NCBI GenBank assembly: GCA_020849655.1
Contig: JADLFU010000269.1
Coordinates: 1 to 64,000 of the forward strand
DNA length: 64,000 nt
Direction: 5' to 3'
DNA from: Polyangiaceae bacterium
GTDB lineage: Bacteria > Myxococcota_A > Polyangia > Polyangiales > Polyangiaceae
Part shown: positions 29,416 to 37,736 of the stretch, piece by piece
How positions within the stretch are numbered: the stretch's first letter is position 1
How the letters are laid out: every line of letters starts with the position of its first letter
Position numbers and translations under genes: made by a program
The notes under the pieces: model-generated
Databases searched by the model: none
The model's input: only the letters and a program-made list of their open reading frames with translations
Told to the model about the DNA's origin: nothing

Positions 29416-30225
29416 GTGAAGAACCTCGATCTGTCGAACAAGCGCGTCCTCGTCACCGGCGCGTCGTCCGGGCTCGGCCTCGAGATGGCGCGGCAGCTCG
29501 CGCGAGATCACAAGGCTCACCCGATCCTCGTCGCGCGCCGCCGCGATCGGCTCGCCGACCTCGCCAAGGAGCTGGAGCAGCTCGGCGCGTCGCCCGAGCT
29601 CATCGCGGCCGACATGACCCGCGCCGACGATCGCGCGCGCGTCTTCGCCGAGACGACCGAGCGCGCGCCGCTCGCCGCCGCCATCCTGAACGCGGGCGTC
29701 ACGTTCTTCGGGCGCGCGGTCGAGCAGGGGCGAGAGAGCGTCGACGGGCTCATCGCGACGAACGTGACCGCCGTCGTCGATCTCTCGCTCCGCTACGTCT
29801 CGTACTTCAAGCAGCGCGGCGACGGCGGCGGCCTCCTGCTCGTCTCGAGCATGGCGAGCCTGCAGCCGATGCCCTACCAGGCGACCTACGGCGCCTCGAA
29901 GGCGTTCGTCACGAGCTTCGGCCAGGCGCTCGCCGAGGAGCACGCGGGCGACGCGCTCTCGGTGACGACGTTCTGCCCCGGCGGCATCGCGACCGACATG
30001 ATCGAGAGCGCGGGCATGAGCGAGAAATACAACAAAGATCACCCGATGGTGATGGCGGTCGAGCCGTGCGCGAGGCTCGCGCTCGGCGCCTTCGTGCGGC
30101 GCGACCGCGTCTACGTGCCGGGGGCGCTCAACAAGCTGACGGCGCTCTCGTCGAAGCTCGCGCCGATGTCGCTCGTGACGAAGCTGGTCGCGCGCGACTA
30201 CCGCGACGTGCTGCCCAAGCGCTGA
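29416..30225 (+). CDS. Short-chain dehydrogenase/reductase
   Basis: A 269-residue NAD(P)-dependent oxidoreductase of the classical SDR fold. The dinucleotide motif VLVTGASSGLGLEMA, an AILNAGVT turn, and the catalytic Ser in LLVSSMAS followed by Tyr/Lys in YGASKAF are all present. The C-terminal part (PGGIATDMIESAG) is of the DltE/YdfG-like group that often acts on acyl or small carbonyl substrates. The start is a GTG. Its last 28 bases overlap the convergent FadL-type gene. Confidence 0.9.
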   Translation: MKNLDLSNKRVLVTGASSGLGLEMARQLARDHKAHPILVARRRDRLADLAKELEQLGASPELIAADMTRADDRARVFAETTERAPLAAAILNAGVTFFGRAVEQGRESVDGLIATNVTAVVDLSLRYVSYFKQRGDGGGLLLVSSMASLQPMPYQATYGASKAFVTSFGQALAEEHAGDALSVTTFCPGGIATDMIESAGMSEKYNKDHPMVMAVEPCARLALGAFVRRDRVYVPGALNKLTALSSKLAPMSLVTKLVARDYRDVLPKR

Positions 30226-31661
30226 CCACTCCCCGGCGGGGCGGGCGGCGCGCCGAACGAGTACTGCAGGCCGAGGCCGAGCAGATCGGCGCGCGCGCGG
30301 TACCGGCCGCCGTTCACCGACTCGAACGGCGCGCTCTTCTGCAGCGGGTTGATGCGCCCGATCCTCGCGGACTCGGGCGCGACGTCGGCCTCGGCCGCGA
30401 AGATGTGCCCGATGACCGCGTCGAACCGCCAGCGCTCGCCGATGTACAGCGAGCCGCCGCCCGCGAGCGTGGTCTTGTCGAAATCGAGCGACGACAGCGA
30501 CAGGTACTCCGGCGGCACCGCGCTCTGCTCGTACGAGATGCCCGCGCGCGCGGCGAGCTTGTAGCCCTTCACGCGGAAGGTCACCTCGCCGCCGAGCCGG
30601 TACGAGCTCGCGTCTCGGAACCGCCGGGGGATGCGGATGACCGGCAGGTTGACCCTGTCAGGACCGCCGGTGACGCCACGGAACGAGATCCCGGTCGGCT
30701 CCGCCACGATCTCGTCGTGCTTCGACCAGAACTCGCGCGCGTACGCGACCTCGACCCGCACGTCGTCGAACCTCGCCTCGACGCCGACGCGCGCGATGTC
30801 GGGCAGCGTGAACGACACGTGGGCGCGATCGCCCACGACGGCGGCCCCGTCGAAGACCGACGACGACGGCAGCCGCACCTGCAGCGTCGCGTCGCTCGAG
30901 ACCCGGGTCGGCAGCTGGTACGCGGCCCCGATGCGCAGGTAGGGGAGGGGCGTGACGATCGCGCCGAGGTTCGCCGTCGGCGCGAAGATGGGGCCGACGC
31001 GCATCTCGCTCGACGCGTCGAAGTCCGGGTCCTCCGGGGCGGAGAGCAGCCTGTCCTGCGGCGCGGCGCTGAAGGTGATCTGCGAGACGAACGTGCCGAC
31101 GAGCGCGTGCACGCCGGCGCCGAGCTGCAGCCAGTCGAGCGGCTTGCCCGCGATCCACACGCCCGGCAGCGCGAGCGCGGAGCCGTCGAACGAGCCGAGC
31201 GTGTAGCGCGCGGGCGACGGCTGGCCGTCGCTCGTCTTCTTGTCGTAGCTCGCGAGCGCGACGTACGGCGCGAACACGCCGCCCGCGACCGTCAGCTTGC
31301 CGTCGAGCAGGCCGTAGGACGCCACCATCGTCGGCAGCGGGAGGATGGGCGACGAGCCCGCCACGGTCGGCGAGTGGACGCGCTTGACGACGCCGTCCGC
31401 GTCGCGCACCGCGAGCTCGCGCGTGTACTCGTTGGAGAATCGCAGCCACGTCCCGTCGACGAGGACGGTGTTCGGCGCCGCGGTGATGCCGGCGGGGTTG
31501 TACCAGACGGCGCCGAGATCGTCCGCGCCCGCGACGAACGCGCCGCCGCGCCCCATCGGTCGCACGCCGCGGTCGGAGAACCAGAGGCCGCCGGCCGCCG
31601 CGGGCGACGGTGAACAGAGCGCCGCGCCGAGGAGCGCGATCGCGACCGGGGCGCGCCTCAC
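30198..31661 (-). CDS. FadL/OmpP1/TodX-family outer membrane channel
   Basis: A 487-residue outer-membrane beta-barrel. The signal peptide (VAIALLGAALCSPSPAAAG) is followed directly by GVRPMGRGGAFVAGADDLGAVWYNPAGI, the N-terminal hatch signature of the FadL family that carries hydrophobic compounds across the outer membrane. Alternating strands follow to the end, and the last strand finishes LGLGLQYSFG before a short Pro-rich tail. The GTG start overlaps the stop of the 1306-residue lipoprotein (GTGA), so the two are translated together and probably act together in the envelope. Confidence 0.88.
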   Translation of the reverse strand: MRRAPVAIALLGAALCSPSPAAAGGLWFSDRGVRPMGRGGAFVAGADDLGAVWYNPAGITAAPNTVLVDGTWLRFSNEYTRELAVRDADGVVKRVHSPTVAGSSPILPLPTMVASYGLLDGKLTVAGGVFAPYVALASYDKKTSDGQPSPARYTLGSFDGSALALPGVWIAGKPLDWLQLGAGVHALVGTFVSQITFSAAPQDRLLSAPEDPDFDASSEMRVGPIFAPTANLGAIVTPLPYLRIGAAYQLPTRVSSDATLQVRLPSSSVFDGAAVVGDRAHVSFTLPDIARVGVEARFDDVRVEVAYAREFWSKHDEIVAEPTGISFRGVTGGPDRVNLPVIRIPRRFRDASSYRLGGEVTFRVKGYKLAARAGISYEQSAVPPEYLSLSSLDFDKTTLAGGGSLYIGERWRFDAVIGHIFAAEADVAPESARIGRINPLQKSAPFESVNGGRYRARADLLGLGLQYSFGAPPAPPGSGQRLGSTSR

Positions 31662-34600
31662 TGCCGCGTCGCCTCGCGGATGAGGTCGTACACCTGCTCG
31701 AGCCCGCTCCCCTCGTCGGCGCAGAACGAGGAGACCTCCTTCGTGATGTTCGCGTAGTCGTCGCCGCTCAGCTTGTCGGCGACGCTGGGATCGGCCCGGT
31801 TCACGTCCGCGATCACGGAGAAGATCACCTCGATCGGCGCCGTCCTCGTGTCGGCGGCCGGGGTCACGAGGCGCGACAGCGCGAGGCCGAGGGTCTCGTT
31901 CGGATCGAGCTTGCTCGTGCAGGTGAGCTTGCCCGCGCCGTCGTACCCGCGCGCGAAGAACCGCGACATCAAGCGGACGATCGCGTCGAGCAGCGGCTTC
32001 TGCTGCTTGCCCTTCCGCTCGCTCGCCCGCATCGCGGCCGAGGCGATGCGGTACACGGGGCCGAGGTTGGTGTCGTCCGCGAGCACCTGCAGCAGATCGG
32101 CGGTCGACGTCAGCGTCGTGTCCTCCGCGTCGTTCGTCGCGCTCGCCATCAGGTAGTCGGTGAGCCGGAGGAACTCGCCCCGCACCTCTGGGTCGCGGCG
32201 CACGGCCTCGAAGAACGAGAGCACGGTCGCGGCGGTCGGGCCCTCGATCGAGTCGACCATGCTCTCGACGAGCTCGCGCTGCGCCCAGGCGCAGTCGCGC
32301 ACGCCGGGGGTGCAGTGCGCGCGGGTCTGCTCGCGGAGCGCGTCGATCACGAGCGGCAAGAGGCGCGGCGTCGCCGGGTTGTGCCAGCTCGACTGCGCGC
32401 CCTCGCCGTCGATCGCGAAGAACGTGTCGACCATCCGCGAGCGCGCGAGCTTCCAGCGCTTCCACACGTCCGCGGCGTCCGGCGCGGGGTTCGACTGAAA
32501 AGCCCTGTCGAAGCCCTTCAGCGCGTCGATGACGAGGTACGCCGGCGTCGTCTGCGGCACCTTGTCGCCGTCGTTGCGCACCGCGAACGAGTCGCCCGCG
32601 CGGTTCTTGATCCCCGCGTTCTTCGCCGGATCGATCATGATGCGCACGACCTCGGCGAGCACGGTGACGCCGTCGACCTCGGTCGACTGGGTGCAGCGCT
32701 TGTCCGCGCCCCACGCGACGCAGCGCTGGATCTTCATCGTCTTCAGCAGGTTGACGAGGTCGAGCACGGCCGGGAAGAGATCGGACTCCAGCATCTCCGC
32801 GAGCAGCGGCTCGTAGGTGACCGCGCCGTCCTGGCTGCACCAGCGCTTGTCGGTCTTCGGCGCGGAGGGATCGCACTCCTCCTTCGACTGCTTCGGCGAG
32901 CCCCAGTGCAGGTGCATCCTGTCGAACAGCTCGACGAACAGGAGCGGCTGCCCGGTGTCGGCGAAGGCCGCCGCGAGCGGCTGGATGTTCTCGACGAACC
33001 CGAACTGCTCGAGCGGGAACACGACGCCCGGGTGCCGCCCGCGGATCGTGTCCTTGAAGGCCGCGCACTTGCGCAGGGCGACCACCTTGCCGTCGGAGTC
33101 CTTGAAGGGCGCCGCGGGGCACACCATCGTCGGCACGGGGTCCATGATGTCCTTGAAGAAATCGCGGCTCTTCACGTAGTAGTCGTCGCCCGCGTAGCCG
33201 CCGAACTCGGCGTAGGGCGCGTCGAAGTGGACGAACCGCCCGATGCCGGGGACGGTGGGCTTCGTCGAGAACCCCTTGATGCCCGACGCGCTCTCGAGAA
33301 ACGCGTCGACCCCGCCGACGAGCCCGGTGAGCGTGCCGTTCGCCATGATCTTCTGCAGGCACGGCTCGCGCACGTCGAACTTCGCGCGGCCGAGCGCGAC
33401 GTCGACGAGCATCGTCGAGACGTTCTCGAGGCGCAGCACGCCGCACTTCGGGATGGTCTTCGGCGCCGGCGCCCCGACGAACGCGCAGACCGCGCCCACC
33501 AGCCCCTCCTCGACGAGGCCCTGCCCCGGGAAGCTGAGCTTGATCTTCACGCCGTTGGGCTGCGGCCAGACGATCTCGAAGTGCGCGACGGCGCCCTCCT
33601 TCGTGCACGCGGCGAGGCCGTCCGCGTCGTGCAGGAGGTGGATGAACTTCTGCAGCGCCGAGCGGTTGTCGCCGGTGTCGGGCAGGCTGCGGTCGACGGG
33701 CGTCGAGAGCTCCTTGATCGAGCCCGTGGTCTTGTTGAACAACGGCCCGTTGAGCTTCGCCTCGCTCTGCTTGTCGTTCGGATCCTTCTGGTACGTGAGC
33801 TGATCGCGGTACCGCATGTACGCGGTGAAGGTCTTCTCGAGCTTCGGCGTGCGCGCGTCGCCGAACGACCGGATGATGGCCTCCAGCAGCCCCGGCGCCG
33901 CGGCGATCCGCGCGAAGGTCTCGAGGAAATCGTCCCAGATCGTCGCGTTCTCGGGCACGCTCGCCTCCGGGTGCGCGTCCGCGATGCGCTTCAGCGACAG
34001 GCCCAGGTTGACGAGGCGCGCGACGCGCCCTGGCTCCTCGCGGAGCAGCCGCTCGATCAGGATCCAGCCCTCGTCCATCCGCGGATCGTTCAGCGTCTGC
34101 CCGAACGCGTGCACGAGGTCGGCGAGCGGCGCGTGGGCGCCGTCGAACTTGCGGTACTGGAGCGCGACCGGCGCCGTCTGGCCAGGCAGCGGCGGGTACA
34201 CGCGCGTGCCCGTCGGCGTAGCCTCGCGCCCGCCGAGCAGCACCGGGATGCCCGCGAGGAGGTTCATCAGCGTCTGATCGTCGTCGGCCGCGGCCGGATC
34301 GGCGAGCGGGCGCAGATCGCGGAGCGCGCGCGCCGCGTACGTGCGCGACACGTCGATCGTCGAGAACAGCGGCCGGCCGTCGACGAGGGCGCGACCGTCG
34401 AGATCCCGGTCGCCGTCCGGCTCGCCGAGCGCGAAGAAGGGCGTGGTGACGCGGCTGCCGTCGGCGGTGACGAAGCGCCCGAGCGGATCGATCTCGGGCA
34501 GGCCCGTCCCGTCGTCGACGAACGGCGCGGGCAGCGCGCCGCCGACGGGCAGGACGCCCGCGAACCCGCGCGGATCGCGCCGCACGACGAGCCGCGGCGC

Positions 34601-35578
34601 GCCGCCGATCGAGAAGGCGTCGTCCTCCTCGAGCAGGATCCGTCGCGCGACCTCGAGCTTCGTCCGCGGCCGGGAGAGCACCGCGATGCCCGCGGTGTCG
34701 TCCGGTGTCACGCCGAGCACGGGCGCGGGCTCGTCGGGCACGCGCAGCTCGTTCGACAGCGCCTCGACGAGCTCGCGGTACTCTGCGTTCGCCTTGCCGG
34801 GGACGGGGGTCTTCGAGGGACCGTACGGATCGGAGTCGTCCGAGAGGAACCGCAGCGCGGTGTTCGCGAGGTCGAACAGGCGCGGGTACGCGAGGATGGG
34901 CCGGGCGAGGCCGATCGCGATCTGCGTCGGTCGGTAGCCCTGCCGCGCCTCGAGCCTCGCGAGCGCCGCCTGCGCCTCGGGATCGCGCCCGACGTAGTCG
35001 AGCGTCGCGGCGAGCCCGCGCGTCACGTCGGGGATCGTCCCGTCGTTGTAGAGATCGATGAAGCGCGAGATCGTCTCGGCGAGCTCGGACAGGAGCTTCG
35101 CGCGCACCTCCGCGTCGCCGGGCTGCGGGCCGCAGCCCTGGTCGGTCGTGCGGGTCGTCTGTCGCAGGACGACCTCGAGGTCGGGGAGCGTCGCGTCGAT
35201 CGCGCGCACGAGGTCCTCGCGGCGGCGCGCGAGCGCCTCGACGCGCGCGACGCGCCGGCGGCGGTTCTCGCGCTGGGTCGCGATGGGGACGAGCTTGTCG
35301 TGCACGTCCACGGCCGTCGTCAGCGGCGGCAGCTTCGACGTGTCGACCTTCGCCGCGTAGGCGCCCTTCGCGTCGGGGTGGCACACGGCGGCGAACGAGC
35401 GGCCCGAGATGTCCTCGCGGAGCGCCTGCGCGCCGACGCGCGAGCAGAGCAGCGTGTACAGCTCGGCGCCGAGCGATCGGCGCTTCGGCGTCACGCGCGT
35501 CGCGTCGAAGTCGGATCCACACCCGACCGCCACCGCCCCCGGCAGGAGCGCGAGACCCAGGAGACGTGTCCGCACCAT
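31658..35578 (-). CDS. Giant lipoprotein (1306 residues) of unknown function
   Basis: The signal peptide ends in lipobox AVAVGC (about residue 20). The rest is a single very long, mainly helical chain with no recognised domain. It includes an early CSRVGAQAL...AAVCHPD segment, scattered Cys pairs in the second half (for example CVAWGADKRC, HCTPGVRDC) and many Leu-rich helices (LLPLVIDALREQTRAH). No catalytic motif or repeat is obvious. It is coupled to a FadL-type channel by a GTGA overlap, suggesting a periplasmic or surface partner in export or uptake of a hydrophobic cargo; that is inference. The start ATG lies 6 bases after TAGCCT. Confidence 0.85.
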   Translation of the reverse strand: MVRTRLLGLALLPGAVAVGCGSDFDATRVTPKRRSLGAELYTLLCSRVGAQALREDISGRSFAAVCHPDAKGAYAAKVDTSKLPPLTTAVDVHDKLVPIATQRENRRRRVARVEALARRREDLVRAIDATLPDLEVVLRQTTRTTDQGCGPQPGDAEVRAKLLSELAETISRFIDLYNDGTIPDVTRGLAATLDYVGRDPEAQAALARLEARQGYRPTQIAIGLARPILAYPRLFDLANTALRFLSDDSDPYGPSKTPVPGKANAEYRELVEALSNELRVPDEPAPVLGVTPDDTAGIAVLSRPRTKLEVARRILLEEDDAFSIGGAPRLVVRRDPRGFAGVLPVGGALPAPFVDDGTGLPEIDPLGRFVTADGSRVTTPFFALGEPDGDRDLDGRALVDGRPLFSTIDVSRTYAARALRDLRPLADPAAADDDQTLMNLLAGIPVLLGGREATPTGTRVYPPLPGQTAPVALQYRKFDGAHAPLADLVHAFGQTLNDPRMDEGWILIERLLREEPGRVARLVNLGLSLKRIADAHPEASVPENATIWDDFLETFARIAAAPGLLEAIIRSFGDARTPKLEKTFTAYMRYRDQLTYQKDPNDKQSEAKLNGPLFNKTTGSIKELSTPVDRSLPDTGDNRSALQKFIHLLHDADGLAACTKEGAVAHFEIVWPQPNGVKIKLSFPGQGLVEEGLVGAVCAFVGAPAPKTIPKCGVLRLENVSTMLVDVALGRAKFDVREPCLQKIMANGTLTGLVGGVDAFLESASGIKGFSTKPTVPGIGRFVHFDAPYAEFGGYAGDDYYVKSRDFFKDIMDPVPTMVCPAAPFKDSDGKVVALRKCAAFKDTIRGRHPGVVFPLEQFGFVENIQPLAAAFADTGQPLLFVELFDRMHLHWGSPKQSKEECDPSAPKTDKRWCSQDGAVTYEPLLAEMLESDLFPAVLDLVNLLKTMKIQRCVAWGADKRCTQSTEVDGVTVLAEVVRIMIDPAKNAGIKNRAGDSFAVRNDGDKVPQTTPAYLVIDALKGFDRAFQSNPAPDAADVWKRWKLARSRMVDTFFAIDGEGAQSSWHNPATPRLLPLVIDALREQTRAHCTPGVRDCAWAQRELVESMVDSIEGPTAATVLSFFEAVRRDPEVRGEFLRLTDYLMASATNDAEDTTLTSTADLLQVLADDTNLGPVYRIASAAMRASERKGKQQKPLLDAIVRLMSRFFARGYDGAGKLTCTSKLDPNETLGLALSRLVTPAADTRTAPIEVIFSVIADVNRADPSVADKLSGDDYANITKEVSSFCADEGSGLEQVYDLIREATRQ

Positions 35579-35653: not shown

Positions 35654-37612
<1,959 letters not shown>

Positions 37613-37736
37613 GGGGGAGGGGCTCCGTGCGTGGGAGTGGATTCGGACCGCGCGCGAGCGAGCCGAGCAGGCGCACGCTCTCACACCGCGGGCGCGCGCC
37701 GCAAGGCGCATTCGCGCGCTCCGTGGGGCGCTCTGC

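Follow-up and report, generated by a model that had tools for sequence, protein, structure and literature searches.

What does a giant lipoprotein without a recognised domain do beside an outer-membrane channel of the FadL family? The question is raised by two genes in a stretch of DNA from a Polyangiaceae bacterium (the window: 64,000 nucleotides, positions 1 to 64,000 of contig JADLFU010000269.1, assembly GCA_020849655.1). An earlier note, made from this DNA alone, had suggested that the pair forms an undescribed system for the transport or secretion of hydrophobic compounds. Comparison across the phylum now makes it very probable that the lipoprotein and the FadL protein work together, and the idea that the lipoprotein is the dedicated partner of one FadL clade is strongly supported. 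For a role in the uptake of fatty-acid-like lipids, with the lipoprotein sharing in substrate handling, we put the chances at about even.

The gene pair

The two genes lie in tandem on the minus strand, the lipoprotein gene first and the channel gene after it, with the four bases GTGA common to the stop of one and the start of the other.

31658..35578, minus strand: lipoprotein precursor gene, 1306 amino acids (open reading frame, coding composition, homologues)
35522..35578, minus strand: signal peptide, lipoprotein residues 1-19 (hydrophobic stretch ending AVAVG before Cys20)
35519..35521, minus strand: codon of the lipidated cysteine, Cys20, position +1 (A-V-G-C in the window; lipobox counts in homologues)
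31658..31661, minus strand: GTGA overlap of channel start GTG and lipoprotein stop TGA (read from the sequence)
30198..31661, minus strand: FadL/TodX-family outer-membrane channel gene, 487 amino acids (PF03349, phmmer match to TbuX, 3bry, and profile matches to structures)
31491..31499, minus strand: NPA motif, channel residues 55-57, near the N-terminus (sequence; common to aligned partners)

The lipoprotein reading frame has the highest coding-composition score of the window's gene calls. Its product begins MVRTRLLGLALLPGAVAVG and then C, an invariant cysteine at which the signal peptide ends. The earlier observation of a giant lipoprotein paired with a FadL-type channel, including the overlap of the lipoprotein stop with the channel's GTG start, is confirmed; only the description of the lipoprotein as leucine-rich falls away, leucine making up 10.6%, which we regard as ordinary.

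Conservation of the pair

Loci were taken around listed lipoprotein genes, a chosen rather than a random sample; genes were called in each locus and profiles of both proteins were run. The first set comprised 52 entries from Polyangia (the window and L033-L083), of which 48 were usable. The four left out were L071 and L082, which have no lipoprotein by design, and L075 and L081, which end 121 bases or less from the lipoprotein stop. A FadL gene follows downstream on the same strand in 45 of the 48. In 28 of these 45 the FadL frame offers a start codon that overlaps the stop of the lipoprotein (-4 or -1); in L040, also among the 45, the lipoprotein frame is broken mid-gene, which makes the intergenic distance meaningless. 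The three loci without FadL downstream are L070, from genome G021 (one contig), and L073 and L074, both from G035, which has linked copies too. On the single contig of G021 (L070, L071) the lipoprotein and FadL genes are about 7.8 Mb apart. G035 carries at least four lipoprotein copies (L043, L073, L074, L076); two of these have FadL beside them and two do not.

A second set of 20 loci came from other families, most of them of other classes (L143-L162). Here FadL is downstream in 11 loci, upstream on the same strand in 3 and convergent in 1, making it adjacent in 15 of the 20; it is not adjacent in the remaining 5. The reversed gene order of L153-L155 is telling because the two genes stayed neighbours despite the change of order. 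Loci from named records, partly of the same genomes, repeat the pattern. In the Labilithrix-type loci L097, L098 and L123 FadL lies 0.8 to 4 kb off, and in L093, L113 (the L074 locus), L124 and L125 it is absent despite there being room for it. The earlier note had named homologues consistently without a FadL neighbour as the result that would speak against the pair. We looked for this case, and the pair proved instead to be conserved, often with overlapping stop and start.

Two observations were made at the edge of these sets. In locus L161 (3462-7853) a lipoprotein gene and the FadL-like gene after it are both very divergent (73 bits and 23-35 bits), which suggests that the pairing reaches beyond profile detection. 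In L198 and L199, from two distant genomes, a deoxynucleoside-kinase-like gene stands between the lipoprotein and FadL genes, with tripartite RND efflux genes alongside.

The lipoprotein itself is widespread. Homologues occur in 40 of 59 near relatives, in 146 of 289 genomes of the class and, by profile search, in 97 of 377 genomes of the phylum; some of the phylum matches fall in families beyond the class, score much lower and are usually fragmented. A further copy, again with FadL next downstream, sits on a different contig of the window's own genome. A search of named records with two short patterns, which does not imply absence elsewhere, collected 48 loci with titles of Myxococcota or 'delta proteobacteria', for example Polyangium, Minicystis, Labilithrix and a Sorangium-named assembly. 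The plasmids searched gave no lipoprotein match. The pair is present in genomes of 3-5 Mb as well as in large ones.

Co-occurrence and co-inheritance

A profile built from 30 lipoprotein-linked FadL proteins (A4) was run on the same 377 phylum genomes and matched in 241 of them at E <= 1e-20. The best scores per genome are separated by a gap of ten orders of magnitude, from 4e-97 to 5e-87, and we defined the FadL clade at E < 1e-90, inside this gap. So defined, the clade occurs in 88 of the 377 genomes, and the lipoprotein is present in 88 of these 88. Conversely, the clade is present in 88 of the 97 genomes with the lipoprotein; two of the other nine (G048 and G053) have a FadL match split into pieces. 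Fisher's test of the association gives 3e-76, relatedness uncorrected, a figure that overstates the case because the cut was set after the gap had been seen and the profile was built from lipoprotein-linked FadL proteins. The scan does show that no sampled genome has this FadL clade alone.

Nine genomes were searched for FadL, eight of them picked since their fetched locus has a lipoprotein (partial in two) without an adjacent FadL gene. All nine have FadL matches. Seven of the eight picked genomes have a top-tier FadL (G021 629 bits, G565 611, G566 653, G567 630, G306 485, G302 476, G203 428), while G303 has a second-tier FadL only, at 258 bits. Second-tier FadL proteins, those above the gap, had no lipoprotein neighbour in any of the 32 loci read (L163-L179, L183-L197), even with a broadened lipoprotein profile; in some of these loci the sequence runs out near the FadL gene, and two hold the second FadL copy of a genome that has the lipoprotein.

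The two proteins also share their history. Tree distances of the lipoprotein and of FadL, compared over 32 pairs, give a Mantel r of 0.80, where the permutation maximum was 0.37 and none of 2000 permutations reached r. Kinship of the species adds to this value, yet the agreement of paralogues does not follow from kinship: where a genome has two pairs, the nearest relatives of each lipoprotein are also those of the FadL it is paired with, or nearly so.

The lipoprotein

The mature lipoprotein is about 140 kDa. A cysteine occupies the lipidation position in 37 of 37 aligned homologues, with the strict E. coli lipobox pattern in 6 and a relaxed pattern in 30 of the 37. As the earlier note had noticed, there are also cysteine pairs: ten conserved cysteines, besides the lipidated one, form five pairs with matched frequencies. 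In mature numbering, 26/47 and 639/693 are each present in 37/37 homologues, 801/819 in 86%, 883/895 in 84% and 78%, and 1070/1077 in 78%. Because the ten cysteines fall into pairs of equal or near-equal frequency, the lipoprotein probably has five disulfides.

In Myxococcus xanthus a lysine at +2 is described as the mark of inner-membrane lipoproteins (PMC3222651). None of the 37 homologues has it, which under that rule argues for a location in the outer membrane. The same source links an alanine at +7 to the extracellular matrix (PMC3222651); 3 of the 37 members have one, the window protein included, and this decides nothing. A calcium-type DxDxDG motif was considered as a hallmark of the family, and with only 18 of 37 members having it, it is not defining.

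No known domain or fold could be assigned to the lipoprotein: Pfam, NCBIfam, PDB sequences, Foldseek and VIA-align gave nothing credible. The Pfam scan of the window lipoprotein returned no family at E <= 0.01, and for the 37 members there was a single chance-level Pfam match (0.0075) and no NCBIfam family, in agreement with the absence of a recognised domain reported before. The PDB sequence search gave no credible match, either for the window lipoprotein or for a profile of homologues. An AlphaFold2 model of a shorter full-length homologue (1154 residues, 39 sequences) reached a predicted local distance difference test score (pLDDT) of 82.9 and a predicted template modelling score (pTM) of 0.78, and its 51% helix and 8% strand bear out the helical content proposed earlier. 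The N-terminal half alone (window precursor residues 20-729) gave pLDDT 75.2 and pTM 0.46, below the full homologue. Because this half gives a weaker model when folded alone, the two halves probably pack into one body. Foldseek found no PDB match with E <= 0.001 for the whole homologue or for the N-terminal half of the window protein, and nothing credible among viral models. The best VIA-align Z values were 3.7 and 4.1; a weak or missing match of this kind does not show a new fold. We found nothing to support the periplasm-spanning shape that had been envisaged.

The channel

The channel is a member of PF03349 (E 1.8e-19, 70 bits, against a cut-off of 29.7), and the best PDB sequence for it by phmmer is TbuX (3bry). 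Against the PDB, profile A4 matches TbuX at 9.6e-17, FadL at 7.3e-13, CymD at 1.8e-12 and TodX at 5e-9. NPA, which we take to be the mark of the FadL N-terminal hatch, lies within the first 90 residues in 29 of 30 aligned channel partners.

Neighbouring genes

Downstream, the end of the FadL gene overlaps a convergent short-chain dehydrogenase gene (29416-30225, plus strand) by 28 bases, 30198-30225; in a sister genome (L082) the two genes end without overlap. Upstream, a gene for an OmpA protein with thrombospondin type 3 (TSP3) repeats (35654-37711, minus strand) ends 75 bases before the lipoprotein start. Adjacency of this OmpA/TSP3 gene to the pair is confined to the window's genus (G000, G001). 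One other neighbour alone is frequent, GlmU, which stands in 34 of 105 loci, not all of them from different genomes, and is divergent in the loci examined. Both were considered as a third member of the operon; as the first is limited to one genus and the second is a housekeeping gene, neither is counted in the unit.

No biosynthetic cluster or efflux neighbour recurs near the clustered loci. The link to secondary metabolites that the earlier note had raised thus finds no backing: no biosynthetic cluster recurs at the loci, and the pair occurs in genomes of 3-5 Mb too.

Function of the pair

Hydrophobic compounds are the likely substrate because the channel belongs to the FadL/TodX family. Three facts from outside the pair point to fatty acids or related lipids. 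The fadL mutant of M. xanthus (MXAN7040) is described as failing to incorporate alkynyl palmitate (PMC4048283). Bradymonabacteria, described as predators, are reported to be missing key enzymes of fatty-acid synthesis, and the use of prey fatty acids through FadL has been proposed (PMC7460792). The third is locus L073 (3800-14654), where a START-domain gene comes next after a lipoprotein copy that lacks FadL, and nearby are genes for a Rieske oxygenase whose C-terminal domain is of the KshA type, thiolases, an acyl-CoA synthetase and an acyl-CoA dehydrogenase, a set resembling those of steroid degradation.

The pair probably forms one functional outer-membrane unit, made of a FadL-type channel and a dedicated, disulfide-stabilised, mainly helical lipoprotein of about 140 kDa, whose most likely task would be to take up long-chain fatty acids or similar lipids. 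The channel would carry the lipid into or across the outer membrane; the part of the anchored lipoprotein would be to capture the lipid, or to receive it and pass it on. We infer the physical complex, the lipid substrate, import rather than export, the side of the membrane that the lipoprotein faces and the hand-over step. Of the two activities that the earlier note had offered, transport remains the best reading of the data; for secretion nothing was found in support.

Several results weigh against this picture. There are lipoprotein copies without a local FadL gene, both in the Polyangia and named loci (L070, L073, L074, L093, L124, L125) and in other families (L146, L147, L149, L159, L162). 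The FadL clade was delimited at a cut set after the gap was seen, with a profile made from linked proteins. In most of the clustered loci the neighbouring genes are housekeeping ones, with lipid genes lacking, and no lipid gene recurs. FadL genes of M. xanthus are reported to be downregulated during predation (PMC9548883).

M. xanthus itself offers a strong lead. MXAN7039, annotated as a putative lipoprotein, was detected in purified outer membrane with 34 peptides, a number exceeded in Table 3 of that study by Oar alone, and is marked there as found in an earlier biotinylation study too (PMC3222651). It resembles our lipoprotein in standing beside a FadL by consecutive locus number (MXAN7040), both being prominent in the outer-membrane proteome (PMC3222651). 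In contrast to the pairs above, MXAN7039 and MXAN7040 are likened by locus number and annotation only, so that homology to the lipoprotein family is a lead and not a result. An OmpA protein, MXAN7037, is two numbers before MXAN7039. Two scans suggest that Myxococcia lie outside the phylum genome set: TIGR02269 was found in 0 of 169 genomes (with nothing in the controls either), and MglA in 81 of 245 at E <= 1e-100, with a best identity of 84%. In searches of the open-licence PubMed Central literature, a single paper was found to name MXAN7039, in a table (PMC3222651), and no title or abstract among those listed presents the pairing as a system.

Could the lipoprotein serve the channel without touching its substrate? 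Small lipoproteins act as assembly factors for other outer-membrane barrels, and translational coupling, strict co-occurrence and co-evolution would fit a factor for the assembly or stability of the FadL barrel equally well, as would the lack of any catalytic family in the lipoprotein. Some 1300 residues would however be very large for such a role, FadL proteins of other bacteria to our knowledge fold without such a partner, and there are lipoprotein copies without a local FadL, though their genomes keep FadL elsewhere; we consider this explanation unlikely, if the strongest of the alternatives. Less probable still, and by a clear step, is a surface-exposed enzyme that frees the channel's substrate. 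It has a precedent in VolA, a surface lipoprotein described as freeing fatty acids for FadL (PMC9496633, PMC12208996), with a similar genetic pairing. In the lipoprotein family, no Pfam or NCBIfam hydrolase was found in 37 members, GxSxG is lacking from the window protein, though present in 9 of the 37, and the mainly helical model matches no solved enzyme.

Export of a hydrophobic product, such as a signal lipid, a sterol or a metabolite, seems to us equally improbable. FadL-type channels are passive and their family does not fix the direction of transport, and in some distant loci (L198, L199) the pair stands beside the RND efflux genes; against this, no biosynthetic or efflux gene recurs in the clustered loci, and uptake is what the sole genetic study of a possibly related FadL shows, as far as it is described in PMC4048283. 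It is hardly credible that the two genes merely travel together. An operon can be passively inherited over short distances, but here adjacency survives a reversal of gene order, the genes are retained together when unlinked, the FadL clade is found alone in no sampled genome and the trees of paralogues match. Lipid uptake by channel and lipoprotein together is the reading that we prefer.

A broader role can be sketched tentatively, and we hold it to be possible rather than likely: two-component lipid acquisition, in which a FadL-type channel obligately works with a giant lipoprotein of unrelated fold in the lipid foraging of predatory and soil Myxococcota, the lipoprotein being to the channel perhaps as SusD-like lipoproteins are to SusC. 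The lipoprotein was never missing from a sampled genome with the FadL clade, and many of the host bacteria live by consuming other cells. How greasy molecules cross the periplasm after FadL is an open question, for which the lipoprotein offers a direct genetic handle. If MXAN7039 is a true homologue, the proposal is testable in M. xanthus, where a channel mutant already exists. A large number of unannotated outer-membrane lipoproteins are also brought together here as one protein family.

Comparison with known systems

The usual picture of a FadL channel is of a self-sufficient protein that lets its substrate out laterally into the outer membrane. For E. coli, FadL by itself is said to be enough (PMC5989066). 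The channel of the pair is like FadL, TodX and TbuX in scoring above the Pfam cut-off, in having NPA and in matching solved TbuX, FadL, CymD and TodX; unlike them, it belongs to a separate clade, never seen without the giant lipoprotein in the 377 sampled genomes.

By analogy, the closest working system is AupA-AupB of Marinobacter, where a channel of the FadL family interacts with a protein that is encoded in the same operon and carries an annotation of unknown function; alkane uptake requires both (PMC5989066). In both systems the gene of a FadL-family channel is paired, operon-like, with that of another protein, in our case with a 4-nt overlap and conserved linkage. AupB differs in being described as an inner-membrane protein (PMC5989066), whereas our lipoprotein has a lipoprotein signal without +2 lysine; the two were compared by description only.

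The other comparison is with Vibrio cholerae, in which volA and a fadL gene are presumably neighbours. VolA is a lipoprotein that acts with FadL in lipid scavenging, and in our pair a lipoprotein gene stands beside a FadL gene. VolA is, in contrast, described as a lysophospholipase (PMC9496633, PMC12208996), while the lipoprotein here is mainly helical in the model and matches no hydrolase family. As AupB is an inner-membrane protein, VolA a hydrolase and no hydrolase family was matched here, the pair is best called a FadL-type uptake variant with its own, undescribed lipoprotein family.

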